A DNA stretch of 33,118 nt from Chloroflexota bacterium (GTDB lineage Bacteria; Chloroflexota; Anaerolineae; Anaerolineales; Villigracilaceae). The notes under the pieces are model-generated. The model made no database searches. It saw nothing but the letters and a program-made list of their open reading frames with translations, and was not told the origin of the DNA. Location: contig QMIW01000044.1 of NCBI GenBank assembly GCA_024434165.1, positions 1 to 33,118 on the forward strand, in the 5' to 3' direction. Made by a program: the position numbers and the translations under genes. This document shows positions 660 to 28,934 of this stretch, piece by piece (position 1 is the stretch's first letter; each line of letters begins with the position of its first letter).

Positions 660-1313
660 ATGGCAAAAAGAATCCCCGTTGTCGAAAACATCCTCGACGC
701 CAACGACCGCCTTGCGGAGGAAAACCGCGCGCGCCTCGAAGCCGCGGGAGTCTTTTCCATCAACATCCTGGCATCCCCCGGCGCGGGCAAAACTTCGCTC
801 ATCGAACAGACCCTGCCGCGCCTCAAAGGCAAATTGCGCGTCGCCGCTGTGGATGGCGACATCGCCACCTCCATGGACTCAGACCGCGCCGCCGCCGCGG
901 GCGCAGCCGCAGCCGTGCAGATCAACACCGGCGGCGATTGTCACCTCGATGCGGTCATGCTGCGCGGCGCACTCGACCAACTCGACCTGGCGCAGTTCGA
1001 CCTGCTCATCGTCGAAAACGTCGGCAACCTTGTCTGCCCCGCCAACTTCAAACTCGGTACGCACAAAACCGTGCTGGTGGCGTCCGTGCCCGAAGGCGAC
1101 GACAAACCCTACAAATATCCCGGCACATATCGCGGCGTGGACGCGCTCATCGTCAACAAAATTGACCTCCTCCCCTACGTGGACTTCCGCATGGACTACT
1201 TCGAGCGCGGCGTGCAGGCGCTCAACCCCGGGGTGACGACCTTCCGCATCTCCTGCCGCACCGGCGAAGGGCTGGATACATGGGCGGCTTGGCTCATAAC
1301 GAACGCCAAATGA
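660..1313 (+). CDS. hypB: Hydrogenase nickel-incorporation GTPase HypB
   Basis: HypB is a SIMIBI-class GTPase that partners HypA in nickel insertion. The 217-residue protein shows the P-loop SPGAGKTS near residues 39-46, the GDCHLDA segment that carries the conserved Cys-His metal site at the dimer interface, and the guanine-specificity motif NKID. It lacks both the N-terminal His-rich nickel store and the CxxCGC motif found in some homologues, so it is the minimal form. No strong Shine-Dalgarno lies directly ahead of the ATG. The stop overlaps the probable hypF start as ATGA at 1310-1313, which suggests translational coupling. Long open frames on both strands across this gene are GC-rich shadows. 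Confidence 0.95.
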   Translation: MAKRIPVVENILDANDRLAEENRARLEAAGVFSINILASPGAGKTSLIEQTLPRLKGKLRVAAVDGDIATSMDSDRAAAAGAAAAVQINTGGDCHLDAVMLRGALDQLDLAQFDLLIVENVGNLVCPANFKLGTHKTVLVASVPEGDDKPYKYPGTYRGVDALIVNKIDLLPYVDFRMDYFERGVQALNPGVTTFRISCRTGEGLDTWAAWLITNAK

Positions 1314-3649
1314 AAGGCGCAGGTAAATCCCCGATGCAGGGCGCCCGAATTCACATCACAGGCATCGTGCAGGGCGTCGGTTTTCGCCCCTTTGTGTACA
1401 ACCTTGCCGCGAGCCTGAATCTCAAAGGCTGGGTGCGCAACACATCCGCCGGTGTGGATATCGAAGTGGATGGAAAAAAAGACGCATTGGATTTGTTCCT
1501 CCAAAAGTTGCGGGACGAAGCCCCGCCGCTCTCCCGCATTGACGAACTCACCGCCTCATTCGGACCCGGTAACGGGTTCACCCAATTCGACATTATCCAC
1601 TCCGAAAGCGTGGACGGCGCCTTCCAGCCCATTTCGCCCGATGTCACCGTCTGTGACGACTGCCTGCGCGAACTCTTCGACCCGAACGACAGGCGGTATC
1701 GCTACCCCTTCATCAACTGCACCAACTGCGGACCGCGCTTCACCATCATCAAAGATATTCCCTATGACCGACCCAAAACGACGATGGCGGGCTTCGCACT
1801 CTGTCCCGCTTGCGAGCGCGAATACCAGGACCCGGCGAATCGCAGGTTTCACGCCCAGCCGGTGGCGTGTCCGGTTTGCGGACCGAGGGTGTGGCTGGAA
1901 ACGAAAGCGGGAAGAGAAAAGAAATACGACAATGAAGCCATCACCGAGACCCAACGCCTCCTCGCCGAGGGAAAGATCGTCGCCATCAAAGGTCTGGGCG
2001 GATTTCACCTTGCCTGCGATGCGGCAAATGCCCGCGCTGTGAGCGAACTCCGCGCCCGCAAACTGCGCGTGGACAAGCCTTTCGCGCTGATGATGCCCGA
2101 CCTGGAAACCATCGAACGCCACTGCCTGGTCAGCGATGCGGAGCGCAAACTGCTGACATCTCCCGCCCGCCCCATCGTCTTGTTGAAGCGTAAGCCGGAA
2201 TCGAACATCGCCCGCGAGACTGCCCCAAAGCAGGACTGGCTTGGAGTGATGCTCCCCTACACGCCGCTTCATTATTTGCTTTTTTTCGATTCCATTCCTC
2301 CTTTGGTGATGACCAGCGGCAACCTCAGCGAGGAACCCATCGCCACCGGCAACGACGAAGCGCGCGACCGGCTCTCCAAACTAGCCGACGCTTTCCTGAT
2401 GCACGACCGGGATATTCATATTCGGTGCGACGATTCAGTAGTACGAGTTTTTGACGATGGACGATGGACCATTGACCGTGTTTCATCGTCCGCCGTTCAT
2501 CACCCATCGTCTGTTTATCCCATCCGCCGCTCTCGGGGCTATTCCCCATTCCCGGTGAAGTTACCGTTCCATGCCCCCAACCTCCTCGCGGCTGGCTCGG
2601 AGTTGAAGAACACCTTCTGCATCACGAACGGACAGTACGCCTTTCTCAGCCACCATATTGGGGATATGGAAAACTATGAAACGCTGCAATCGTTCGAACA
2701 GGGCGTGGAGCATTTTGAACGGCTCTTCCGTGTAAAGCCGGAGGCGATAGCCTACGATTTGCACCCCAACTATCTGGCTACACGATATGCGCTTGAACGA
2801 GCCGAACGCGAGAGGCTGCCTGCCATTCCGGTGCAGCACCACCATGCCCACGTCGCCGCCTGCATGGCAGAGCATGGGTTGAGCGAGCCAGTCATCGGCG
2901 TGGCGTTCGATGGGACGGGCTGCGGCGAGGACGGCGCGATCTGGGGCGGCGAGTTTTTGGCGGCGGATTACAAATCCTTTCAGCGTGCGGCTCATTTGGA
3001 ATATTTCCCCCTGCCGGGCGGCGACGCCTCCATCAAGAGACCGGCGCGCACGGCGCTGGCGCTGTTGTGGAGCCTCGGCTTGGAGTGGGATGAACAGCTC
3101 GCACCCGTCATGGAGTTTTGCGCCGAAGACCGGGCAACCCTGCGCGCGCAGTTGGAAAGGAAAATCAACACCCCGCTTACCTCCAGCATGGGGCGCCTGT
3201 TCGATGCGATGGCGGCGCTGGCGGGCGTGCGGCAGAAGGTCAACTACGAAGGGCAGGCGGCAATCGAATTCGAGGCAGTGGCAGATTCGGCTGAGGCGGA
3301 GATGTACCCCTTTGGCGTGGAATCAGGCCGGGTACGGGTCGGAGGCGCGGTGGAGGCGCTGGTCAAAGATGCAATGGCGGGAATCCCCATCCCCAAAATA
3401 TCCGCCCGCTTCCACAACGGTTTGGCGGAGGCAGTTCGGGAGACGGTTCAGAAAATCAGCGGCGAAACGTCGCTTCGGAGAGTGGTCCTCTCCGGCGGGG
3501 TTTGGCAAAACACCACGCTGCTGCAGCGAACGATTTCGCTGCTGCGCAAAGATGGTTTTGAAGTTTATATTCACCGGGAAGTACCGGCGAACGACGGCGG
3601 ACTCTCATTGGGTCAAGCCGTCATTGCCGCATCAGGATTGCGAGGTTGA
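1310..3649 (+). CDS. hypF: Carbamoyltransferase HypF, with an in-frame repeat insertion
   Basis: HypF makes carbamoyl-adenylate from carbamoyl phosphate and ATP and passes the carbamoyl group to the HypE C-terminal cysteine, the first step to the active-site cyanides. From this start it has 779 residues. In order it has an acylphosphatase domain (VQGVGFRPFVY, residues 20-30), two zinc fingers (C115-x2-C118-x18-C137-x2-C140 and C165-x2-C168-x18-C187-x2-C190), a YrdC domain (about 205-410) and a Kae1-like domain with HHHAH near residue 509 and GGVWQN near the end. The ATG at 1310 overlaps the hypB stop; ATG 1334 is also possible, and an upstream ATG at 1280 would cut deep into hypB. Odd feature: about 20 extra residues around 381-402, between DDSVVRV and YPIRRSRGY, are encoded by a palindromic repeat (2453-2512). 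Confidence 0.95.
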   Translation: MKGAGKSPMQGARIHITGIVQGVGFRPFVYNLAASLNLKGWVRNTSAGVDIEVDGKKDALDLFLQKLRDEAPPLSRIDELTASFGPGNGFTQFDIIHSESVDGAFQPISPDVTVCDDCLRELFDPNDRRYRYPFINCTNCGPRFTIIKDIPYDRPKTTMAGFALCPACEREYQDPANRRFHAQPVACPVCGPRVWLETKAGREKKYDNEAITETQRLLAEGKIVAIKGLGGFHLACDAANARAVSELRARKLRVDKPFALMMPDLETIERHCLVSDAERKLLTSPARPIVLLKRKPESNIARETAPKQDWLGVMLPYTPLHYLLFFDSIPPLVMTSGNLSEEPIATGNDEARDRLSKLADAFLMHDRDIHIRCDDSVVRVFDDGRWTIDRVSSSAVHHPSSVYPIRRSRGYSPFPVKLPFHAPNLLAAGSELKNTFCITNGQYAFLSHHIGDMENYETLQSFEQGVEHFERLFRVKPEAIAYDLHPNYLATRYALERAERERLPAIPVQHHHAHVAACMAEHGLSEPVIGVAFDGTGCGEDGAIWGGEFLAADYKSFQRAAHLEYFPLPGGDASIKRPARTALALLWSLGLEWDEQLAPVMEFCAEDRATLRAQLERKINTPLTSSMGRLFDAMAALAGVRQKVNYEGQAAIEFEAVADSAEAEMYPFGVESGRVRVGGAVEALVKDAMAGIPIPKISARFHNGLAEAVRETVQKISGETSLRRVVLSGGVWQNTTLLQRTISLLRKDGFEVYIHREVPANDGGLSLGQAVIAASGLRG
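2453..2512. repeat. Palindromic GACGATGGA repeat inserted in frame in hypF
   Basis: This stretch begins GACGATGGACGATGGACC and ends CCCATCGTC, with TTTCATCGTCC in the middle, so it is an imperfect palindrome. The reverse complement of the copy at 9287-9343 matches its first 16 bases at 15 positions, its middle decamer at 9 of 10, and its CCATCGTC end. It is read in frame in hypF and adds about 20 residues at a place where HypF proteins normally pass straight from the DDSVVRV strand to the RRSRGY motif. Length near 60 bases, a multiple of three, keeps the gene open. Confidence 0.75.
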
Positions 3650-3908: not shown

Positions 3909-4987
3909 AATACGTGACGGAATACCGCGATGCGGAGTTGGTCAAAGGTGTGATCGAAGAGATCCGCCGCACCGTGACGCGCCCCTGGACACTGATGGAA
4001 ATCTGCGGCGGGCAGACGCACGCGATTGTGCGCCACGGCATTGACCAGCTGCTGCCGCCGGAAATCGAATTGGTGCACGGACCGGGCTGCCCGGTGTGCG
4101 TGACTCCGTTGGAGTTGATTGACAAGGCGCTGGCAATCGCTTCACGCCCGGAGGTTATCTTTTGCTCCTACGGCGACATGCTGCGTGTGCCCGGCTCGGG
4201 GCGCGATCTGTTCTCGGTTCGGGCGGGCGGCGGGGATGTGCGTGTGGTCTATTCGCCGCTCGATGCGGTTACGCTGGCGGAAAAGCACCCCGATAAACAG
4301 GTCGTTTTCTTTGCCATTGGGTTTGAAACCACCGCCCCGCCGAATGTGATGAGCGTTTTGCAGGCGCAGCGGCTTGGCTTGAAGAATTTTTCCATTCTGG
4401 TTTCGCACGTGCGCGTGCCGCCCGCCGTCAACGCAATCCTGGGGTCGCCGTCCAACCGCGTGCAGGGATTTCTGCTGGCGGGTCACGTCTGCGCCATCAT
4501 GGGCTATTGGGAATATCCGCCGCTGGCGAAGAAGTTCCGCACACCGATGGCGGTGACGGGTTTCGAGCCGCTCGACATCGTGCAGGGAATTTTGAAAGCC
4601 GCGCAATTATTGGAGCAAGGCAGGGTGGAGGTCGCCAACGCCTATCCGCGCGCGGTGACGCTGGAAGGCTTGAAGCCCGCGCAGGCGGCAATTCAAAGGG
4701 TCTTCATGGAATGCGACCACAAATGGCGCGGCATCGGCATGATCCCCATGAGCGGCTGGCGCCTGCGCCCCGAGTTCGACGAGTTCAACGCCGAGAAACG
4801 CTTCGATGTGGGTTCCGTCCGCGCGGAAGAATCTCCGCTGTGCATTGCGGGGGAGATTCTGCAAGGCTTGAAGAAACCGCATCACTGTTCCGCGTTTGGG
4901 AAGGAATGCACGCCCGAACGCCCGCTTGGGGCGACGATGGTTTCCTCCGAGGGCGCGTGTGCGGCGTATTACAAATACAAAGGATGA
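3905..4987 (+). CDS. hypD: Hydrogenase maturation iron-sulfur protein HypD
   Basis: HypD is the scaffold on which iron receives its CN and CO ligands, in complex with HypC and HypE. It has 360 residues, a typical length. Conserved motifs are CGGQTH (C34) and GPGCPVC (C62 and C65), corresponding to the catalytic and redox cysteines of the family. C-terminal cysteines expected to hold the 4Fe-4S cluster occur in the [23 protein letters not shown] and GACAAYY segments. The start overlaps the hypC stop and the stop is three bases before hypE, so the genes are almost certainly co-transcribed. Confidence 0.96.
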
Positions 4988-4990
4988 ACG

Positions 4991-6061
4991 ATGATGGATG
5001 AAGGCAGAGCAGCCAATGTCGAAGGCGCGGTGTGCGCTCCGCCGCTGACCCACAACGAGCAGATCGTGATGGGACACGGCGCGGGCGGGCGGATGAGTCA
5101 CAGGTTGATTCAAAAAGCCTTCCTGCCTGCGTTTCAAAACCCGTCCCTGCTGGCGGGGAACGACGCCGCGCTGGTGGAGCCGGGGCTGGGACAAAAACTA
5201 TCCATCAGCACGGATGCGCACGTGGTCTCGCCGCTTTTCTTCCCCGGCGGCGACATCGGCAGACTGGCGGTGTGCGGCACTGTCAACGATGTGGCGATGC
5301 TCGGCGCGAAGCCGTTGTATCTGACGGCGGGCTTCATCCTCGAAGAAGGTTTGCCGATGGATACGTTGAAGCGCGTCATCGAATCCATGCGAACTGCCGC
5401 CGAAGAGGCGGGCGTGCAGATCGTGGCGGGCGATACCAAAGTGGTGCAAAGGGGCAAAGCAGACGGGATGTACATCACCACGGCGGGAGTCGGCGTGGTG
5501 CGTGACGGAGTGAATGTGGGCGGCGCCAATGCGAGACCGGGCGATGTCGTTATTCTTTCAGGCACAATTGGCGACCACGGCATAGCCGTCCTCGGCGCGC
5601 GGGGCGAACTGGGATTCGAGTCCGGTTTGCAGAGCGACGCGGCTCCGTTGAATCATCTCATTGCAGCAATGCTGGATGCGAGTCGGAACATCCATGTATT
5701 GCGCGACCCGACTCGCGGCGGGCTGGCGACGACGTTGAACGAAATCGCTTCACAATCAGACGTGGGGATTGTCCTGCATGAGCAGGCGATTCCCGTTCGC
5801 CCGGAGGTCCACGCCGCCTGCGAGATGCTGGGGTTCGATCCGCTCTACGTGGCGAACGAAGGGAAACTGGCGGCAGTTGTCGGGAAGGAAGATGCGGAGC
5901 AGGTCCTCTCGGCGATGAAAGCGGCCCGCTACGGCGAGGGGGCGGTCATCATCGGCGAAGTCGCCGCAGAGCCAAAGGGACGGGTTTTGCTCAAGACCGC
6001 GCTGGGCAGCACCCGTGTGGTGGACATGCTGGCGGGCGAGATGCTGCCCAGGATTTGTTGA
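4991..6061 (+). CDS. hypE: Carbamoyl dehydratase HypE
   Basis: HypE accepts a carbamoyl group from HypF on its C-terminal cysteine and dehydrates it with ATP to a thiocyanate, the donor of the cyanide ligands. The 356-residue protein belongs to the AIR synthase/PurM family (GHGAGG near residues 28-33, GNDAAL, AGDTKVV, RDPTRGGLATTLNE). It ends in PRIC, the invariant tail with the modified cysteine at the last position, so the 3' end is intact. Start at 4991 or the adjoining ATG at 4994; the first 20 or so residues are poorly conserved. It closes the hyp operon and stops only 5 bases from the convergent stop of the regulator at 6067. Confidence 0.96.
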   Translation: MMDEGRAANVEGAVCAPPLTHNEQIVMGHGAGGRMSHRLIQKAFLPAFQNPSLLAGNDAALVEPGLGQKLSISTDAHVVSPLFFPGGDIGRLAVCGTVNDVAMLGAKPLYLTAGFILEEGLPMDTLKRVIESMRTAAEEAGVQIVAGDTKVVQRGKADGMYITTAGVGVVRDGVNVGGANARPGDVVILSGTIGDHGIAVLGARGELGFESGLQSDAAPLNHLIAAMLDASRNIHVLRDPTRGGLATTLNEIASQSDVGIVLHEQAIPVRPEVHAACEMLGFDPLYVANEGKLAAVVGKEDAEQVLSAMKAARYGEGAVIIGEVAAEPKGRVLLKTALGSTRVVDMLAGEMLPRIC

Positions 6062-6066
6062 GGGAA

Positions 6067-9000
6067 CTACTTGCCGCCCATCAACTCGCCATAAAGCCTC
6101 TCGGTTTCAGGCATGGGCTTGGCGTTCAATTCCGCCTTCAACCGCGACTGTAACTCGGCATAGACTCTTGCCGCGCTGGCGCGGTCGCCAAGTTCGACAT
6201 ACGCCCGCATGGACAGGCGGTATAGGTCTTCGTTGAGCGGGTCGAGAGCGATGGCTTTTTCGGCGCAGGCGACGGCATGTTTAGGCGAACGGCTTGTCAG
6301 GTGATACGCTGCGAGTTCCTGCAAGGCGTTCAGATACGCCTGCGCCAATCTGCGGCGCTCGGGAAAGACCCATTCGTAATAAAGATTTTGCATATACTCG
6401 CCCTGATACAGCGTCACTGCCTGCTCGTACCATTCTGCTGCAGACTCGTTACTGGTCGCAGAACGAGTCTTGGCAATGGATAGGTTGAATTCGTCCACAT
6501 CAATGCTGAAGCGGGCGGAATCCAGCCAGTATTCGCCGACTTCGACGAGGATCAATCTTGGGCTGTCGTCCCCAGCCTTGAGCGCGTTGCGGAGGCGCGA
6601 GAGAGCCGTGTGAAAGGCGGTGCGACTCGTCCGCTCCTTTTCGCCCCAGATGGCGTCGAAAACTTTATCCGCCGGGCTTTTTTCTCCGCGCATGGTGACG
6701 AAGTACGCCAGCAGGTCACGCGCTTTGGCGGAGACCCAGCGCTCCTGCGAGACCTCCTCCCCATTCAACCATACATGGAAGTTACCGAAACATTGCACAC
6801 GGATGGAATAACGATCCTGCATCGTGATTTGTGCTGGTTTCTCCGGCAGATTTTCCAACACCCGTTCCAGGAATGGGCTCTTCTCACCGGCGCGAATCAA
6901 CGCCTCACTCACGACCTGCGAACGGACGCCTTGATCGAGAAAAAGCTGGAACGTGCGGGAGGCTTCGATCAGCCGCAGGGCTTTGCGGGCATATTCGATT
7001 CCGCTGGCGTTGCGTTTCGTTTCGAGATGGATATACGCAAGCCCGAAATACACCATCGCCAATGGAATGCGGAACTGACGCCGCTCGCCGACTTCCACCA
7101 ATTCGCCATACAAACGCTCGGCTTTATCGAGTTGGCGATTCTCCAACGCCACATCCGCAAGCACGCTGCGGCAAACGTACGCTTCGTACGTATCGGGGCT
7201 GCCCGTGTACGACCACAACGCGCCTTCCGCCAGTTGACGGGCTTCTTCCACACGGCCCTGCCCGCACAGGTTGTAGGCAAGATAACCGGTTGCCATCAAC
7301 TGTTCATACGAAGCCAAGCCCAATTGCCGGCCGATCTCCATACCCTGCCGCAGACTCGCTTCGGCGCGGGCGGTTTCCCCCAACCGCGTGAGCGCATTGC
7401 CCAAGGCTGTGTATGCGCTTGGCAGTAACTCTTTCAAATGAAGCGTCTGCGCGATCTGCAATCCGCGTTCGGCGTATTGCAGGGCTTTGTCGAATTCGCG
7501 CCAATACAAATAGGGTGTGACCAATGAAATACAGGCTTGCGCGCCGATGGGCGAAAATTCTTCGGGCGCGATCTGCAAGGCTTCCTGGCAATACCGCACC
7601 GCGGCTTGCGGGTCGCCATGCCACCAGCAGATTTGCCCGAGCGATTGCAAAAAGTTTGCGCGCGCCAACGCGCTGATATGCCTCCCCGCCAGCCGCGCTT
7701 CTTCCACGGCTTCTTCAGCGAGTTGACGTCCGGTGTCCATGCCCGTTAAAAATCCCGCGCTTTTCGCCAGCGACATGAGGGCTTCGGCGCGGGCGGCGTG
7801 ATCTTCATCGGCAAACGACAACGCTTCTTTGGATAACGTCTCTGCCTGGCGGTAATTGCCCTGGGCGCGGTTCACTTCGGCAAGGCGTGTAAGCGCGCGG
7901 CATACGCCGCTGGAATTCCTTTGTGCCGCAAACGATGAACGCGCGTCTTCAAAAGCGGCAATTGCCGCGCCTGTCTGTCCCAGGCGCCAATGGGTGTTGC
8001 CATGCTGCAAAATCAATTCGGGATTGGCTTTCATCACGCCGCCCGGCAACGCGCTGAGATAACGGTGCAGTACTTCCACGCGCCCCCGTTCGACATAATC
8101 GGCGGCGAAGATGGAGACGACCCTGGCAGCGGATTCAAAATCGCGGGCGCGGAGATAATGCGAAAACGACGCCTCCAACTCGCCCTGCGACTCGTAATAT
8201 GCGCCTGCGCTTCTTTCCACGCCGATCACTGATTCTGTTTCGACACGCTGGAGTCGGCTGAGAAGGAATTCCCGAAAAAGATAATGATAGCGATACCAGC
8301 GGCGCTGCGGGTCGAGACCGGCAAGGAAAAGATTCTGCTTCTCCAATTCCTCCAAAATGGACTGGGCGTTCTTCACGCCAGCCACTGCATTACAAGCGGA
8401 TGCGTCCATTTGGCTGAGGATGGAAGTTCGCAAAAGGAATTGCTGCAAATCATCCGGCAGGCGTTTGAAGACCTCCTCCGCCAGATATTCGAAGACGAAT
8501 TGCTGGGAACCGCTCAAACCGGAGAGCATGGCGTTGACATCCTGTGCATCCCGTCCGCTGAGCGAGGAGCGGATGATCTGCAACGCCGCCACCCAGCCCT
8601 CGGTCTTTTCACTTAACAGGTTGAGGTTTTCGGAAGAAATATCGGGCAGGTTCGTCTGCATCCAATTTGAAACTTCGTCTTCACGGAAACGCAGGAACGA
8701 AGCGCGAAGTTCCGCCAGTTGACCTCTCGCCCGCAGACGAGCCAACGCCAGCGGCGGATCCACGCGGGTGGAGATGATGATCCGCAAACCATCGGGGGCA
8801 TTTTCAAGCAGAAAGTCCACGAGTTGGTGGACGACCGGGCTGGTAACGAAGTGATAGTCTTCGAGCACGATCAGCCAGGGCGTCTGGATCCGCTCGGCAA
8901 GTTCGTTGACAAGCACGGTCAATACATGCTGAGGAGAAATGGTCGCTTCGGCGCTGTCGAGCAGCGATTGCGCCGTCTGCCCGATGGCATGGGTCAATGC

Positions 9001-9285
9001 CTCAGGGGCGCGCTTCATATTGCGGAGGGCTTCAATTAAGTAGGTGAGGAAAACCGTCGGGTCGGAGTCGCCTGCATCCAGGGTGTACCAGGCAAAGGCG
9101 GAGTCTGAGGCGTTGATGAAGTCGGCAAGCAGGGTGGTTTTGCCGTATCCAGCCGGGGCGGAGAGCAGGGTCAGGAGCTTGTTCGCCGTCGAATTCAGCC
9201 AATCCAAAAGGCGCGGACGCGGGAGCAGTTCGGGGCGCGGGCGCGGCACGAGAAACTTGGTACGAAGGAGTATGGAAGGCTTCAT
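6067..9285 (-). CDS. MalT-like STAND ATPase regulator with C-terminal BTAD domain
   Basis: Probable ATP-dependent transcription activator of 1072 residues. The N-terminus (MKPSILLRTKFLVPRPRP) and the P-loop APAGYGKTT (about 43-51) are those of the MalT/LAL group of STAND ATPases, with the region to about 330 forming the NTPase and helical parts. Residues about 380-800 are TPR-like helical repeats that usually bind an inducer. Instead of the LuxR helix-turn-helix of MalT, the C-terminus has an OmpR-type winged helix (about 820-905) followed by a bacterial transcriptional activation domain of SARP/EmbR type. The start at 9285 is chosen because an upstream in-frame ATG at 9339 lies inside a palindromic repeat and adds 18 unconserved residues. 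It diverges from the ABC transporter genes, so control of that cluster is a reasonable inference. The inducer is unknown. Confidence 0.85.
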   Translation of the reverse strand: MKPSILLRTKFLVPRPRPELLPRPRLLDWLNSTANKLLTLLSAPAGYGKTTLLADFINASDSAFAWYTLDAGDSDPTVFLTYLIEALRNMKRAPEALTHAIGQTAQSLLDSAEATISPQHVLTVLVNELAERIQTPWLIVLEDYHFVTSPVVHQLVDFLLENAPDGLRIIISTRVDPPLALARLRARGQLAELRASFLRFREDEVSNWMQTNLPDISSENLNLLSEKTEGWVAALQIIRSSLSGRDAQDVNAMLSGLSGSQQFVFEYLAEEVFKRLPDDLQQFLLRTSILSQMDASACNAVAGVKNAQSILEELEKQNLFLAGLDPQRRWYRYHYLFREFLLSRLQRVETESVIGVERSAGAYYESQGELEASFSHYLRARDFESAARVVSIFAADYVERGRVEVLHRYLSALPGGVMKANPELILQHGNTHWRLGQTGAAIAAFEDARSSFAAQRNSSGVCRALTRLAEVNRAQGNYRQAETLSKEALSFADEDHAARAEALMSLAKSAGFLTGMDTGRQLAEEAVEEARLAGRHISALARANFLQSLGQICWWHGDPQAAVRYCQEALQIAPEEFSPIGAQACISLVTPYLYWREFDKALQYAERGLQIAQTLHLKELLPSAYTALGNALTRLGETARAEASLRQGMEIGRQLGLASYEQLMATGYLAYNLCGQGRVEEARQLAEGALWSYTGSPDTYEAYVCRSVLADVALENRQLDKAERLYGELVEVGERRQFRIPLAMVYFGLAYIHLETKRNASGIEYARKALRLIEASRTFQLFLDQGVRSQVVSEALIRAGEKSPFLERVLENLPEKPAQITMQDRYSIRVQCFGNFHVWLNGEEVSQERWVSAKARDLLAYFVTMRGEKSPADKVFDAIWGEKERTSRTAFHTALSRLRNALKAGDDSPRLILVEVGEYWLDSARFSIDVDEFNLSIAKTRSATSNESAAEWYEQAVTLYQGEYMQNLYYEWVFPERRRLAQAYLNALQELAAYHLTSRSPKHAVACAEKAIALDPLNEDLYRLSMRAYVELGDRASAARVYAELQSRLKAELNAKPMPETERLYGELMGGK

Positions 9286-9286
9286 A

Positions 9287-9343
9287 GGTGGACGATGGAC
9301 CGTAGACAATAGACGATAAAACCATGATCCATCGTCCATTGTC
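9287..9343. repeat. Second copy of the GGACGATGGA palindromic repeat
   Basis: The element starts GTGGACGATGGACC and ends ATCCATCGTCCATTGTC, so GGACGATGGA is repeated as its exact complement TCCATCGTCC. It is the same family as 2453-2512 in hypF, in opposite orientation. It lies directly ahead of the regulator start codon, so it should be in the regulator leader or promoter, and it creates a misleading upstream start codon. Confidence 0.75.
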
Positions 9344-19666: not shown

Positions 19667-21019
19667 TCAGGCGGGGTCGGACGCCGTATCATGGAAATCC
19701 AATTGATTTTCCAGTGCAGGCGATGCCTTTTGCAGCAAACTCATCACTGTAATATGCAGCCAGCCGAAACTGACCGCGGTAACCAGGAACATGAGGAAGA
19801 AGGTGGACTGGGGAATCAAGGTCAATTCATAGAACCATGCAAACAAAGGCGGCAGGAAGAATCCGCCCAATGCGCCCAACATGCCGACCAGCCCGCCGAC
19901 TGCGCCAACATCTTTCGGGAAATATTCGGGGATGTATTTATATACGGCGGCTTTGCCAACGCCCATGCAAACGCCGACGATGAAGACCCAGATCGTAAAC
20001 CAGGTGACGCTCATCGAAAATGCGAACGCTTCGCGCTGACCGCCGGGATCAACGCTGGTGGGAACGTCAATCACGATTTTTGCGCTGGGGAAGGATAGAA
20101 AGAGACAAGCTGCCAGCATGGCGCCAAAGACCCAATACATGATACGGCGCGCGCCAAATTTATCGGAGAGGTAGCCGCCCAGGGGGCGCAGCAAACTGGC
20201 GGGGAAGATGAACAACGCAGTCAGGAGCGCGGCGTGTTTCAATTCCAACCCGTACACATCCACGTAATATTTGGGAAGCCAGACCGAGAGCGCAACATAC
20301 GCGCCGAAAACCACTACATAATACAGGCTGAAACGCCAAACGCGGATGTATTTCAAAGGCTTGAGCATTTCCAGCATGGGGCGGTCTGCGCCTGGTTTAA
20401 TATCCTGCTTTGGCGTGAAAACCCAGATGGCAATGGCGGTGATGCCCAACAGGACACAATACATAAAGGGGACAAACCGCCAGCCGCCGGGAATCCACCC
20501 GCCTGCGAGCCCTGCCGCTGGAACCATCGCGATCAAGGTCGGACCGATGAGCTTGGTCACCGATGCGCCGACATTCCCCGCGCCGAAGACTCCCAGTGCG
20601 AATCCTTTTTGCTCACGCGGATACCACGCCGAGTTCCATGAGATGCCGATCGAGAAGGCATTTCCCGCCATGCCGACGAAGAACGCCCAGGCCATCAACT
20701 CGGTGTAGGTGTCTGCCTGGCTGACCATGTAGGATGGGATGATGGTCGCCAAAACCAGCAGCGTAAAGACAATCCGCCCGCCATAGCGGTCGGCGAGGAT
20801 GCCGAAGAGCAGCCGCCAGAACGAACCATTCAGGATGGCAATGGCGGCGAGCCAGCTGAGCTGCACATCGGTCAAGCCCAATTCTTTGCGGATGGGAATC
20901 CCCAGCACGCCGAACATTAGCCAGACGGCGAACATCAAGGTAAAGCCGATGGTGGAGAAAACGAGGACGCTGGTTCGCCCCTTTCTGTCGCTCATTTTCT
21001 CAGTGGGTTTTGTACTCAT
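19667..21019 (-). CDS. narK: NarK-type nitrate transporter, nitrate/proton symporter-like
   Basis: Major facilitator protein with about 12 membrane helices, 450 residues from the ATG at 21019. Features include the loop GILADRYGGR between helices 2 and 3, the nitrate signature region AGNVGASVTKLIGPTL in helix 5, and GVGKAAVYKYIPEYFPKDVGAVGG in the second half. The sequence resembles NarK1/NasA/NrtP-like importers, so proton-driven nitrate uptake is the likely activity. A GTG at 21043 adds 8 residues, but a palindrome (21036-21051) overlaps it, and the ATG gives the cleaner N-terminus. It follows a second NarK gene in the operon, separated by a hairpin repeat. Confidence 0.88.
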   Translation of the reverse strand: MSTKPTEKMSDRKGRTSVLVFSTIGFTLMFAVWLMFGVLGIPIRKELGLTDVQLSWLAAIAILNGSFWRLLFGILADRYGGRIVFTLLVLATIIPSYMVSQADTYTELMAWAFFVGMAGNAFSIGISWNSAWYPREQKGFALGVFGAGNVGASVTKLIGPTLIAMVPAAGLAGGWIPGGWRFVPFMYCVLLGITAIAIWVFTPKQDIKPGADRPMLEMLKPLKYIRVWRFSLYYVVVFGAYVALSVWLPKYYVDVYGLELKHAALLTALFIFPASLLRPLGGYLSDKFGARRIMYWVFGAMLAACLFLSFPSAKIVIDVPTSVDPGGQREAFAFSMSVTWFTIWVFIVGVCMGVGKAAVYKYIPEYFPKDVGAVGGLVGMLGALGGFFLPPLFAWFYELTLIPQSTFFLMFLVTAVSFGWLHITVMSLLQKASPALENQLDFHDTASDPA

Positions 21020-21035
21020 CGTAAAAATTCTCTTT

Positions 21036-21051
21036 CGTAACACATGTTACG
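21036..21051. promoter_or_regulatory. CGTAACA/TGTTACG palindrome ahead of the second narK
   Basis: Seven-base perfect arms CGTAACA and TGTTACG flank a two-base centre, 17 bases upstream of the narK start at 21019. Size and symmetry are those of a dimeric operator. No known regulator is assigned; as RNA it could also form a small hairpin. Confidence 0.3.
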
Positions 21052-21062
21052 CAATTCCTTCT

Positions 21063-21112
21063 CCCTCACCCCCGCCCCCTCTCCCAGTGGGAGAGGGGTG
21101 AAGGGGTGAGGG
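21063..21112. repeat. CCCTCACCCC palindromic repeat between the two narK genes
   Basis: Outer arms CCCTCACCCC (21063-21072) and GGGGTGAGGG (21103-21112) are exact complements. Inner arms CCTCTCCCA and TGGGAGAGG meet around a single base. This is a widespread REP-like noncoding sequence. Located between two genes of one operon, its very stable hairpin may cause partial termination or stabilise the upstream mRNA. Confidence 0.75.
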
Positions 21113-21140
21113 TGCGTAAGGTGAATATCGTAAATCACAA

Positions 21141-22466
21141 TCAGGATGGTTTTTCGCAACCTTTGCGGGTGTAATACCACCAGTTGATGGCAGTGGCGAT
21201 GACAAAGAACACCACGGCTCCGTAGAAAAACGGCAATGGGGAACCCGTGTTCGTAATGGAAGAACCGATCAAGGTGGAGAAGATGAACGGTCCGTATGCC
21301 GCGACCGCCGCCGTCCAGCCGATGACGCCCGCGCTCTGGCGGGGGGAATCGGCAAAGATGATCGGGTATTGCCGGAAGGTGGCGGCGTTGCCGATGCCCG
21401 TGAAGAGGAACAGGGTCAGAATGAAGATCACGAAGAGCGGGAATTGGTCGAGCGAGGTTGGCGTGAACAATCCCAGAAACGCCATTGACAGCGTGCCGAC
21501 GATCAGGACGATGCCTGTGATGTGTGTGAGAATCGCACCGCCGTACTTGTCAGCGACGGGTCCAAAAAGGATGCGTGCCAGCGAGCCGACCAAGGGTCCG
21601 AGGAAGGCATATTTCAAGGGGTCGGGCGCGCCGGGAAAAGCCCCATAGAGTGATTTGATCAAAAGGGGAAACGCAGCGGATAACCCTGAGAACGTGCCGA
21701 AGGTCATCACATAGGTGATGGTGCAAAACCACGTATGCTTCATCCCGAAGATGTCCATCTGCTCTTTGAAGGAGGCTTTGATGGGCACGCTTCGCAGGTA
21801 GATCCACGCAAGGACGCCCATGATAACGAGGAAAGGCGCATAAACGAAAGCCGCATTCTGAAGCCAGATGGGTTTGACAACCTCTTTGACGCTCATGGTT
21901 TGCGAACTGCCCACAATGGCAAAGCCGATGATCCACGGAGTGAGGAATTGCGTGAGGCTGACGCCAAAGTTGCCGATGCCCGCCTGAATGCCGAGCGCGG
22001 TGCCCTGCAATCGTTTCGGGAAGAAGAATCTGGTGCTGGGCATGTAGGACGAAAAATCGCCGCCGCCGAAGCCCGCCGAGAACGCCAACAGCATGAAGAC
22101 CCAAAAGGGGGTATTCGGGTTCATGACCGCCAGCCCAATGCCGATGACGGGAATGAGTTTCAGGAAGGTGGTGACGGTGATGACATGGCGCGTGCCATAG
22201 ATCGGCGTCAGGAACGTATGCAGGATGCGTAATGTCCCGCCTGCCAGCCCGGGCATAGCCGCCAGCCAGAATAACTGCATGGTGCTAAATTCGAATCCAA
22301 TTTGCGGAATGCGCACCACAATGCCGCTCATCATGAACCACGAAGCAAACGACAGGATCAATGCAAGCGTGGTGATGGTCAGCGTGCGCCAGGCGATCTT
22401 ACTGCCTGTTTCTTTCCAGAATTGCGGGTTTTCCGGTTCCCATGTGGTCAACCATGTGTCTTTCAT
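21141..22466 (-). CDS. narK: NarK-type nitrate/nitrite antiporter
   Basis: Major facilitator protein of 441 residues with about 12 helices. The nitrate signature in helix 5 (GFGGGDFSSYMPSTRFFFPKR then GTALGIQAGIGNFGVS) closely resembles E. coli NarK/NarU and Paracoccus NarK2, which exchange external nitrate for internal nitrite. The conserved arginines expected to bind the anions in helices 2 and 8 are plausible at GTLRILHTF and SLARILFGP. GGAG lies 7 bases ahead of the ATG. It starts 19 bases after narI. Pairing with the second, symporter-like NarK matches the two-transporter arrangement of several denitrifiers. Confidence 0.92.
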   Translation of the reverse strand: MKDTWLTTWEPENPQFWKETGSKIAWRTLTITTLALILSFASWFMMSGIVVRIPQIGFEFSTMQLFWLAAMPGLAGGTLRILHTFLTPIYGTRHVITVTTFLKLIPVIGIGLAVMNPNTPFWVFMLLAFSAGFGGGDFSSYMPSTRFFFPKRLQGTALGIQAGIGNFGVSLTQFLTPWIIGFAIVGSSQTMSVKEVVKPIWLQNAAFVYAPFLVIMGVLAWIYLRSVPIKASFKEQMDIFGMKHTWFCTITYVMTFGTFSGLSAAFPLLIKSLYGAFPGAPDPLKYAFLGPLVGSLARILFGPVADKYGGAILTHITGIVLIVGTLSMAFLGLFTPTSLDQFPLFVIFILTLFLFTGIGNAATFRQYPIIFADSPRQSAGVIGWTAAVAAYGPFIFSTLIGSSITNTGSPLPFFYGAVVFFVIATAINWWYYTRKGCEKPS

Positions 22467-22485: not shown

Positions 22486-23166
22486 TTAATTCAATTTGAC
22501 TCTCCGCCGCGTCCAGATCACAAGCTGGAAACTGCGCCAGAGATAACTGACAGGGAAGCTCACCATGTGCACCAGCCTGCCAAACGGGAAGACCGCAATC
22601 AGCAGGGTCGCATTTAGAAAATGCAGTTTGGGAATCAACGGCAAAGAGGCGACATACTGCGGCGCAGGCTGGAAGGTCGCAAGCGATACCACCCAGGGCG
22701 TGACCGTGTGGATGAACCACGTCGCGCCCCAGCGGTAGCCGAACGCCATCCACAACCCCAACACCACCTGCACGATCAGCAGAACCAGCACAGCCCAATC
22801 GGCAGGAGTGGTAACCATGCGGACTTTGCTCGAAGCCACCCGCCGATAGAACATCGCCCCCGCGCCCACCAACGCCATGATGCCGAGAATCTTCCCCGCC
22901 AGTTCCGCGAGGTAGAGCGTTTCAGGCGTGCTGTGCAGGAAGAACATCAACTTGGGGGCGACAAACCCACCCAAATGGATGAGCAGGGTCGGCAGGATGC
23001 CATAGTGCCAGAGGGTCGAGCCCCAGAATTGAATGTCTGTTTCAAGGAATTGCGAAGAGAGACTCGTAAACGAAAACTGGTTGGTGAGGAAGCGGTAGAT
23101 CGTCCCCCCCACGGCGAGCGCAACCGCCACGTAGGGAAAAACAACATAGAGTAGTATGTCAAGCAT
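22486..23166 (-). CDS. narI: Respiratory nitrate reductase gamma subunit NarI
   Basis: Membrane cytochrome b that oxidises quinol on the outer side and passes electrons through two b hemes to NarH. The 226-residue protein has about five helices. Candidate heme histidines are in WHYGILP and LIHLGGF near the second helix and in KLHFLN and RLVHMVSFP near the end, as in E. coli NarI. Start and the narJ stop overlap by 8 bases (23159-23166), implying translational coupling. Length is the family norm, and the C-terminal basic tail RRRVKLN is on the cytoplasmic side. Confidence 0.94.
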   Translation of the reverse strand: MLDILLYVVFPYVAVALAVGGTIYRFLTNQFSFTSLSSQFLETDIQFWGSTLWHYGILPTLLIHLGGFVAPKLMFFLHSTPETLYLAELAGKILGIMALVGAGAMFYRRVASSKVRMVTTPADWAVLVLLIVQVVLGLWMAFGYRWGATWFIHTVTPWVVSLATFQPAPQYVASLPLIPKLHFLNATLLIAVFPFGRLVHMVSFPVSYLWRSFQLVIWTRRRVKLN

Positions 23167-23710
23167 GGCTCATTTCCTTTTCAGGAGTGTGTGTAAGAAC
23201 AAGTTGAAGCGCCTTCAACAAACCGACATAAGGGTTCTGCGACTCTGCGAACGCTTTCAACATTTTTTCGAGCGCGGGGATCAATCCCTGAACGAGCAGA
23301 GTCTGGCAAAACTCGCCCTGACGATTGGCAGCATCCAAACCGAGAAAACGCAGGATGACAGCGAGATGGTCAGGCAGTTCCCCGCCCGCCGAGTAGCCAA
23401 AGGCGTGATAGGCTTCATTCAACTGCGCCATGAACGCGCCGCGCTTGTAACTCTCGCCGAACAGTTGATAGCCCGCATACGGATAACAAACGGGCTGCAT
23501 ATCGAACGTGACCGTATAGAGTTCTTCGATTTTTTCAACGGACAGATTCTGGATGCCGTTCTGAAACGCCTTCAGTTCCTCCACCGCATCGGGATGGACG
23601 CCTCGCACTTCGCCGAGGCAGGTTTCCGTTATGGAGAACAGATCCTGGCTGGGATAGGAGAGCAGGTCAGCGAACAGGGTATAGAGCAGACCAGTGGAAT
23701 CTTTGTTCAT
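23159..23710 (-). CDS. narJ: Nitrate reductase assembly chaperone NarJ
   Basis: Cytoplasmic chaperone of the NarJ/TorD/DmsD family that binds apo-NarG and allows molybdenum cofactor and FS0 cluster insertion before membrane attachment. It has 183 residues, mostly helical. The SYPSQDLF start of the fold and the segment YGESYKR-like LFGESYKRGAFM followed by LPDHLAVILRFLG correspond to the conserved core. It begins two bases after the narH stop and overlaps narI by 8 bases. It is rather short compared with E. coli NarJ (236), lacking much of the variable C-terminus, as is common outside proteobacteria. Confidence 0.92.
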   Translation of the reverse strand: MNKDSTGLLYTLFADLLSYPSQDLFSITETCLGEVRGVHPDAVEELKAFQNGIQNLSVEKIEELYTVTFDMQPVCYPYAGYQLFGESYKRGAFMAQLNEAYHAFGYSAGGELPDHLAVILRFLGLDAANRQGEFCQTLLVQGLIPALEKMLKAFAESQNPYVGLLKALQLVLTHTPEKEMSHA

Positions 23711-23712
23711 GA

Positions 23713-25203
23713 TTACAGCCCTCGGCGCGCGCCCTGACTGCGACCAAAGCCCGCTTCGGCTTTGCGCTGTTGGGGGTCATACGTCTCTTCAATGTCACCT
23801 TCGCGGCTGGCGGGCGGGATCATGAAGCGTTCCTGGTACGACGGCAGGGAGGTCAGATGGTAGATGGCTTCGGCTTCTTCGGCGCTCATCCCTGCTTTGG
23901 CGAGAGCGGCGGCTGCCTCTTCGGCGGTCACATCGCCCACAGTTTGGGCGCGTTTGTAGATGCGGACAGCGATCATCTTTTGATAAGCTTTTATGACCAG
24001 TTCGTCATTCCCTGCCGCCAACGTGCGCGACATGTAACGCACAGGCACGCGGGCATTTTCCAACGAACTAAACAGGTCTGTTTCCACACGCTGGGTGCCG
24101 TTGTTCTGGGTGGCATTGAGAACAGGCAAAAGCGGCGGGACGTAGAACAGCATGGGAAGCGTGCGATATTCAGGGTGGAGCGGAAGCGCCAGTTCCCATT
24201 CCTTCACATAGCGATAGACAGGCGAACGCTGCGCAGCGGTGATCACACCGTCGGGGATGCCGCTCTCCTTCGCGGCGGCAACAACTTTCGGGTCGTGCGG
24301 ATCGAGAATCATCTCGCGCTGGCGCTGGACGAGTTGTGCATCGGGCGCTTTGACGGCGGCTTCGATCTGATCCGCGTCATAAAGCAAAACGCCCAGATAG
24401 CGGATGCGCCCCACGCAGGAGTGGAAGCAGGCGGGAGCCTGTCCCGATTCGAGGCGCGGGTAGCACAGGATACATTTTTCCGATTTGCCCGTTGACCAGT
24501 TGTAAAAGGTCTTCTTGTACGGGCAGGAGGAGACGCACATGCGCCAGCCGCGGCATTTATCCTGATTGATCAACACGATGCCATCCTCGGCGCGTTTGTA
24601 AATGGCGCCAGATGGACACGCCGCCACACAACCCGCGTTCAGACAGTGATTGCAAATGCGCGGCATGTAGAAATAGAAGAGTTGTTCGATGGAAAAGAGA
24701 CGGCGCTTTTCCTCCTCAGTCATGTTATCCAGCAGGGGATCATTGACCGCGTAAATATTGGAACCGCCCAGGTCATCATCCCAGTTCGGACCCGATTCGA
24801 TTTCAATCGGTTTGCCGTCAATGCGCGAGATGGGACGCGCGGTTGGCTGGTCGTCGCCAAGAGGCGAATTGAACAGATCGCCGTAGTTGTACGTCCACGG
24901 CTCGTAATAATCGTCCATCGTCGGCAGGGCGGGGTTGGAAAAAATGTTGCCGAGGGTTTGCGCGCGGTTTTGCAGTTTCAGTTCCACTTTGCCTTTTTTC
25001 AGTTCCCAGCCGCCTTTGTATTTTTCCTGGTCTTCCCAAAGGGTGGGGAAACCGGTGCCCGGCTTTGTTTCCACATTGTTCCACCACATGTACTCCGCGC
25101 CCTGGCGGTCAGTCCAGATGTTTTTACAGGCGATACTGCATGTGTGGCAGCCAATGCATTTATCGAGATGGAAAACCATTGATACTTGCGATCTTATTTT
25201 CAT
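23713..25203 (-). CDS. narH: Respiratory nitrate reductase beta subunit NarH
   Basis: Electron-transfer subunit linking NarI hemes to NarG. The 496-residue protein has four cysteine groups: C16-x2-C19-x2-C22-x3-C26 at the N-terminus, then CNHCLNAGCVAACP, CRGWRMCVSSCP and CILCYPRLESGQAPACFHSC. The Trp in CRGW, where a cysteine would be, is the NarH hallmark that leaves one 3Fe-4S cluster beside three 4Fe-4S clusters. AAGGA precedes the ATG by about 9 bases. The narG-narH gap is filled by a palindromic repeat, whereas narH-narJ are two bases apart. Length and motifs are complete. Confidence 0.96.
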   Translation of the reverse strand: MKIRSQVSMVFHLDKCIGCHTCSIACKNIWTDRQGAEYMWWNNVETKPGTGFPTLWEDQEKYKGGWELKKGKVELKLQNRAQTLGNIFSNPALPTMDDYYEPWTYNYGDLFNSPLGDDQPTARPISRIDGKPIEIESGPNWDDDLGGSNIYAVNDPLLDNMTEEEKRRLFSIEQLFYFYMPRICNHCLNAGCVAACPSGAIYKRAEDGIVLINQDKCRGWRMCVSSCPYKKTFYNWSTGKSEKCILCYPRLESGQAPACFHSCVGRIRYLGVLLYDADQIEAAVKAPDAQLVQRQREMILDPHDPKVVAAAKESGIPDGVITAAQRSPVYRYVKEWELALPLHPEYRTLPMLFYVPPLLPVLNATQNNGTQRVETDLFSSLENARVPVRYMSRTLAAGNDELVIKAYQKMIAVRIYKRAQTVGDVTAEEAAAALAKAGMSAEEAEAIYHLTSLPSYQERFMIPPASREGDIEETYDPQQRKAEAGFGRSQGARRGL

Positions 25204-25220
25204 AATGTCGTTTCCTTTTC

Positions 25221-25295
25221 ACCACGAAGGGTCACAAAGGATCACGAAGGAAGGGTTTGAAAAACCTTTGTGACCCTTCGTGTCCTTTGTGGTTA
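25221..25295. repeat. Palindromic repeat between narG and narH
   Basis: Arms CACGAAGGGTCACAAAGG (25223-25240) and CCTTTGTGACCCTTCGTG (25265-25282) are perfect 18-base complements, flanked by further CCACGAAGG/CCTTTGTGG words. This is another widespread noncoding repeat. In the nar mRNA it would form a long hairpin between two subunit genes, starting 6 bases after the narG stop in transcription order. Confidence 0.8.
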
Positions 25296-25301
25296 GTAGT
25301 C

Positions 25302-28934
<3,633 letters not shown>

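Follow-up and report, generated by a model that had tools for sequence, protein, structure and literature searches.

The question raised by this locus is how a palindrome-forming sequence of ~60 bases came to be translated inside the hypF gene of a Chloroflexota bacterium. The gene was found at positions 1280..3649 on the plus strand of the window, i.e., the whole stretch of 33,118 nt that was analysed. Its product of 789 aa matched the TIGR00143 profile with 829.6 bits (cut-off of 466.1 bits); the reading frame is open across the insert and the gene is otherwise intact. The neighbouring genes, named by eye from their translations, give the order hypA-hypB-hypF-hypC-hypD-hypE-like. The insert itself (2453..2512, plus strand) contributes about 20 residues (392-411). 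Because Pfam places the YrdC-like domain at residues 227-398 and HypF_C from residue 432, it is located at a domain junction, as the first-pass annotation of this DNA had claimed. When aligned by sequence, the HypF proteins of known structure (3vth and 4g9i) have no insert and are ~16 residues shorter at that point. The structure model of HypF (mean pLDDT of 74.7, pTM of 0.53) was too weak at residues 379-423 to place the insert; the predicted pLDDT is below 50 there and, likewise, in the zinc-finger region. On comparative grounds, the site looks like a tolerant linker. The sequence 2453-2512 folds better than 200 of 200 shuffled sequences on each strand (z of -3.7 for plus and -4.2 for minus). 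A search of the window against Rfam at the gathering thresholds gave no match to a known RNA family.

A second copy of the same repeat family is located at 9287..9343, between the gene of a SARP/LuxR-type regulator and that of a substrate-binding protein, and is intergenic when the likely start of the regulator gene is used. The first-pass annotation had pointed to this copy, and the relatedness is real: the best local alignment of the two copies matched at 17 of 19 positions and scored 28, compared with 20 or less among 500 shuffles. The block of 15 matches in 16 quoted there was not recovered, as the best 16-mer agrees at 14 of 16 positions. The longest ORF of the regulator (6067-9339 of the window) begins within this copy, and the gene finder start is 9285; with a start inside a repeat, automatic annotation may append repeat-derived residues. 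In the window, GACGATGGACGATGGAC with up to three mismatches was matched six times against 0.08 expected, one of the matches (12305) being unrelated to both copies. With the element as BLAST query, 58 matches at E ≤ 10 were obtained in the same genome. The pattern GACNRTNGACNRTNGAC was found 201 times in this 4.4-Mb genome (104 forward and 97 reverse), compared with five matches (five forward, none reverse) for the reversed-pattern control. The insert thus belongs to a dispersed repeat with many further copies, as had been proposed. A separate dispersed repeat of ~150 bp occupies positions 55-205 of the window. It is matched over the greater part of its length at 14 places in the genome at 84-100% identity (itself counted) and at three short ones, and it might resemble a recently active MITE.

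The element is built as a mosaic in which 7-bp units face their own reverse complements; it is not one fixed palindrome. Its unit type is GACGATG with close variants. The preferred letters are GAC followed by G>C>A, A>G, T>C, and G>A>T (GACNNNN), where GAC, A/G at position 5, and T/C at position 6 are imposed on the outer units by the search pattern itself. A script returned 47 two-armed candidates, and removal of three below 44 nt left 44 elements; two loci hold two overlapping candidates each. The mean element size is 60 bp. Among the 51 clusters in the fetched stretches, all 16 two-strand clusters showed the convergent arrangement (plus, then minus). Over the outer 21 nt, the arms of the same element were 71.1% alike, compared with 73.5% (sd 1.0) when the arms were dealt at random across the 44 elements, and 99.7% of 2000 random deals reached the observed value. 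Since likeness within an element is slightly below that of random deals, there is no compensatory pairing between the arms. If anything, good pairing is avoided, which loss of long perfect palindromes or hairpins would explain. A hairpin maintained by compensatory change is not supported, as the arms of the 44 elements do not covary. The inverted arrangement given in the first description therefore stands, and the single defined palindrome does not; the 7-bp unit had gone unnoticed. The elements lack the unpaired terminal tag of GTAG/CGTC REPs: CGTC recurs alongside the heptamers of the 3′ arms, where it faces GACG in the 5′ arm. In 29 hypF loci, lag-7 runs numbered 29 against 0.1 in shuffled sequences, and other lags gave 0-1, except for 12 at lag 14. 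The excess was milder over 394 kb made up of the window and the hypF-region stretches (17 runs at lag 7, compared with 6 and 9 at lags 8 and 14), and this survey did not yield a usable tally of heptamer types.

As 7 and 3 are coprime, a heptamer array gives the same peptide in all three frames. In every frame, (GACGATG)n is read as DDGRWTM and (CATCGTC)n as HRPSSIV, free of stops; in GACGATA and GACCATT, one of the two strands has a stop every 21 nt. The arrays are therefore easily translated through, the peptide being independent of frame and steps of three units (21 bp) preserving it. Over the 47 candidates and six frames, 59% of frames were open, compared with 44% after letter shuffling (maximum of 52% in 50 shuffles). 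The clusters were placed with a home-made codon-based gene finder, whose gene lengths add up to 0.90 of the DNA surveyed. The tally of coding against intergenic copies is 16 of the 51 clusters within genes, 12 across gene ends, and 23 intergenic. Twelve copies are clearly internal, in 11 genes, and all of them are read in frame. L121 (dihydroorotase-like) and L139 (phytoene-desaturase-like), both named by eye, were left out of the twelve as natural-looking protein, together with L123 and L133, both at a gene end. The host genes, identified with Pfam and NCBIfam, code for HypF, AroA (two copies), MutL, MoeA, an ADH/GFO-IDH fusion, two NuoE/NuoF fusions, a formate-dehydrogenase-like molybdopterin protein, a histone-deacetylase-like protein, an FAD oxidoreductase, and a membrane protein. 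By these domain assignments, intragenic copies lie often, not always, between domains: at a junction in HypF, MutL (between two domains), the ADH/GFO-IDH fusion, and one NuoE/NuoF fusion, and inside the [2Fe-2S] domain in the second NuoE/NuoF fusion.

The HypF linker was compared in relatives, many of which are draft assemblies. HypF matches were obtained in 54 of 61 genomes, many being only short acylphosphatase-like stretches, and the best 30 loci were taken, with that of the present genome (G000) included. The stretch between DDSVVRV and YPIRRSRGY differs in sequence among these loci, and the 20 residues of the insert are not conserved across HypF proteins. By eye, a heptamer-like stretch was seen at the linker in 22 of the best 30 loci, weakly in some, and was absent in eight. 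The families were of the GACGATG, CAGTGAT, GAGTAAC, AATCGTA, CAATTAC, AACGTTC, ACGCAAC, GAAAGTG, GAAGAAA, TTGAAGG, and TCACGAC types. In a stricter test, the 7-bp lag in 45-nt windows of the 30 HypF genes was set against synonymous recodings, of which at most 1 in 500 could be as good. It revealed periodic segments of eight heptamer families at residues 389-412 in 18 of the best 30 loci. Other segments were located at 330-339 in nine genomes, at 207-213 in seven, at 99-102 in two, and at four single places. Three genomes from other families (G052, G043, and G038) have HypF segments; by the same test, none was found in the distant G049, G053, G040, G055, and G048 or in the genus members G027, G028, G023, and G001. 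A second HypF loop (loop 2; 2282..2305, plus strand) carries heptamer segments in other relatives. It has 24 nt here and 45 nt in G017 and G028, and the gap of 21 nt, equal to three heptamers, is most simply explained by loss in this genome.

The HypF and aroA trees were quick ones, with family labels assigned by eye. At least 17 changes are required to place the twelve by-eye labels on the HypF tree. The sister pairs G003/G029, G006/G009, and G020/G014 (SH-aLRT of 97-100%) differ in HypF family, and G000 and G017 share one. Different heptamer families at one protein spot in relatives make this spot look like a tolerated landing place with exchanged contents. Genomes with a GACGATG-type HypF are richer in motif copies (7 vs. 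15 genomes, one-sided p of 0.0045, uncorrected for kinship and control counts). GAGTAAC was found in 9 of 37 genus members, both genomes with a GAGTAAC-type HypF among them. The abundance of the CAGTGAT family does not track the HypF type, and genomes mix heptamer types across sites, so one type per genome setting all sites holds only partly.

Two further sites were analysed in aroA, which was matched in 51 of 61 genomes, remotely or only in part in some of them, and for which 30 loci were used. Site 1 has an insert in 22 of 30 loci, non-heptameric in some, and a short form in eight; on a weak tree, 19 changes are needed for the labels and seven for presence/absence. By eye, the residue right after the insert is I, V, L, or M in 22 of 22 loci, and N, D, or G in all eight short forms. 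This split suggests one old site whose contents were exchanged. No target-site duplication was evident by eye at site 1. Site 2 is 69 nt long in 26 of 30 genes and 75 nt in four. Its 7-bp lag exceeds that of synonymous recodings (p < 0.01) in 20 of 30, which are of the CATCGTC, ACTCGTT, or CACTGGT type. All 20 periodic forms have 69 nt, the same as six native non-periodic forms, and in the four 75-nt forms the lag is not significant. A change of family at constant length points to rewriting and not to simple insertion. At both aroA sites, the family is identical in G000 and G017. The same tolerant loops also contain in-frame palindromes of non-heptamer type or other repeats, namely in L063, L068 (hypF loop 1), L075 (hypF loop 1), L163, L164, and L170 (aroA site 1), and L295 (moeA). 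Their types include GGGG.GACTCGCGAGTCGCC, CCCTGAGCGAA.TCGAAGGG, and CCCTCTCCC..GGGAGAGGG.

Seven orthologous sites were compared between G000 and G017: two in HypF, two in aroA, and three in L131, a 9.6-kb stretch of the present genome. An 11-kb stretch of G017 is 87% identical to L131 over the aligned parts. At the first L131 site, the GACGATG-type array found here is represented in G017 by a stub, GACGATGGACGA, followed by a GAGTAAC/CTCGTTA-like palindrome. At the second, both genomes have the GACGATG type, rearranged. The third, in moeA, has (AATCGTC)n here and an unrelated CCCTCTCCC...GGGAGAGGGG palindrome in G017, and the frame is open in both. More repeats, with many short G017 matches, lie at 1073-1104, 4287-4348, and 8164-8215 of L131. 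For L141, another stretch of the present genome, no orthologous stretch was found in G017; the matches were only ~30 to 107 nt long, mostly at the repeats of L141. The G017 match to the window stops at 6059, short of the second copy (9287-9343).

At least one motif match was found in all 37 genus genomes (G000 included) and in 9 of 24 genomes from other families of the order. The counts within the genus range from 1 to 229. Several genomes have just 1 to 4, close to what the control gives, and the reversed-pattern control was itself high in some relatives (39 vs. 136 motif matches in G034, 31 vs. 110 in G031). The suggestion that the insert is private to this lineage had to be abandoned, since most of the genus members examined have an occupied HypF site, in part with other heptamer families. 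GACSATDGACSATDGACSATDGAC was found in at least 111 stretches of GTDB representatives. Among the 80 matches listed, 24 were from Chloroflexota (by title), four from cyanobacteria, and many from Bacteroidota. In a crude scan of these 80 stretches, 15 had convergent partners and seven had divergent ones. The heptamer is thus not confined to this phylum, and its convergent form is not universal. GACSATD arrays were found across many phyla, and (GACCATT)n arrays in contigs of Prevotellaceae and Bacteroidaceae (L185, L209, L213, and other Bacteroidota loci).

The data show a high-copy dispersed repeat of 7-bp units, one copy of which is the HypF insert, an open frame through it, recurrent sites, and different families at one site. 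We consider it probable that tolerant sites swap their resident sequence over time for other heptamer families or palindromes. The genome and its relatives carry several heptamer families, which appear to sit mostly between genes. Copies inside genes would persist at places, often linkers and loops, at which additional or changed residues do no harm to the protein, and the resident sequence would be replaced by another family, sometimes at unchanged length. In this exchange, short repeats may be copied ectopically onto one another through gene conversion or template switching, slippage would set the unit number, and the insert would be a passenger of no benefit to the host. Such copying between sites, together with slippage, is favoured by replacement in place, by the nesting of families, by the 7-bp period common to them, and by uncoupled arms, though insertions and losses recurring at tolerant loops could mimic exchange. 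A broader proposal is tentative, and we hold it to be possible rather than likely: a genus-wide, ongoing process would rewrite short tracts in place with heptamer families of the genome, in genes and between them, with the fixed loops of conserved enzymes as landing pads. Whole peptides would be replaced from one sister species to the next, with no transposition and in many cases no change of length, and heptamers would persist in genes owing to their frame neutrality.

The elements could also be non-autonomous mobile hairpins of the REP or RPE kind, moved by a transposase in trans, with families striking the same tolerant loops independently. Such hairpins would account for the dispersal to more than 100 places, the convergence in 16 of 16 two-strand clusters, the presence/absence at aroA site 1 (22 of 30 occupied), and the non-heptamer palindromes in the same loops. 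Intragenic REPs are known as well, and the available text of PMC3733652 reports different REPs at about one recB place in two Xanthomonas species. However, aroA site 2 was rewritten at constant length, the arms do not covary, and unrelated transposons would not be expected to share a 7-bp period over many families. Moreover, none of the three Y1 transposase (PF01797) matches in the present genome has a GAC-type pair within its ~1.5-kb flanks, so a REP moved by a RAYT-type transposase is unsupported; one loose lag-7 match lies beside one of the three. We regard mobile hairpins as rather unlikely.

It is improbable that local replication slippage creates the 7-bp repeats anew at each site, with no copying between sites. 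It would be in line with the GACSATD arrays of many phyla and with a survey, cited in PMC4679880, in which heptamers are the commonest class of 5-11-nt repeats in most genomes; the idea of a 7-nt polymerase footprint is reported there too, in the portion available. But one family occupies more than 100 places here, compared with 1 to 4 matches in some genus members, and slippage alone does not produce the convergent second arm. We find it very hard to believe that the elements are retained as functional hairpins (terminator, processing, or protein-binding), the HypF copy being a by-product. Compensatory pairing is absent from the 44 elements, in which complementarity is slightly lower than random, families are swapped at fixed sites, and the window has no Rfam match. 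These points stand against the good single-strand folds and the position of 35 of the 51 clusters between genes or at a gene end, though ~90% of the surveyed DNA was called coding.

Heptameric repeats are not new, the STRR heptamers of cyanobacteria being one case, and neither are translated palindromes; what is new is that heptamer families are exchanged at fixed loops of proteins. PMC4692102 describes heptameric repeats of the GGGAATC type in Xanthomonas and of the GGGGA(T/C)T type in Nostoc. As in the present genome, the units of Xanthomonas, (GGGANTN)n, are heterogeneous, occur at many places, and form convergent inverted pairs (70 and 75 cases); there are more than 180 arrays per genome, which differ between close species. 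Those arrays are 89-93% intergenic and 7-11% intragenic, whereas by the home-made finder the elements here appear less intergenic (23 of 51, with 12 at gene ends). In the sections of that paper at hand, each genome has a single heptamer type, and conserved proteins are not described as sites of family exchange (PMC4692102). Rickettsia palindromic elements, with which the first-pass annotation had drawn a parallel, are likewise dispersed, in frame in many unrelated conserved proteins, and apparently tolerated (PMC10969869, PMC2229807). The parallel holds for in-frame translation in several unrelated genes, and intragenic REPs likewise resemble the insert in being translated in frame; it fails for sequence family and size, as those families are ~105-150 bp long, with no 7-bp unit mentioned in the available parts of these papers, compared with 60-bp heptamer mosaics here. 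GTAG- and CGTC-tagged REPs are also short palindromes, some of them intragenic, and the CGTC type has no dedicated transposase, but in the accessible text they are defined stem-loops with an unpaired tag at one end and no heptamer unit (PMC3733652). The TAACTGA repeats of Beggiatoaceae, Cyanobacteria, and Bacteroidetes resemble the present elements as dispersed heptamer arrays in distant phyla, few of them in ORFs. As far as the available text goes, they differ in being direct repeats, mostly upstream of start codons, with one inverted case and with the in-ORF ones at protein edges (PMC4679880). Chloroflexus aurantiacus, of the same phylum, has 22 heptamer-derived (GATAGRA)n satellites; these are satellite arrays, and neither inverted arrangement nor in-frame insertion is described in the part available (PMC6749651). 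In general, long tandem repeats are normally represented and palindromes over-represented, according to the available part of PMC4060949. A search of mostly open-access literature found no description of translated heptamer elements or of family exchange in Chloroflexota.

Rickettsia and some REP-rich genomes offer the best-known cases of translated palindromes, and heptamers are known as a largely unexplained, mostly intergenic excess. Both phenomena meet here, in a genus with many sequenced species, in which the HypF and aroA loops differ in family between sister species. The origin of bacterial 7-bp repeats, whether by copying between sites, slippage, or transposition, thereby becomes testable by comparison. 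Such exchange would also be a route for fast rewriting of protein linkers, and rewritten linkers can mislead alignments and annotation. Elsewhere in the window, positions 23159-28934 hold what appears by eye to be a nitrate reductase cluster (large subunit, iron-sulfur subunit, chaperone, and membrane subunit), with two transporter-like genes, also recognised by eye, nearby at 19667-22466.
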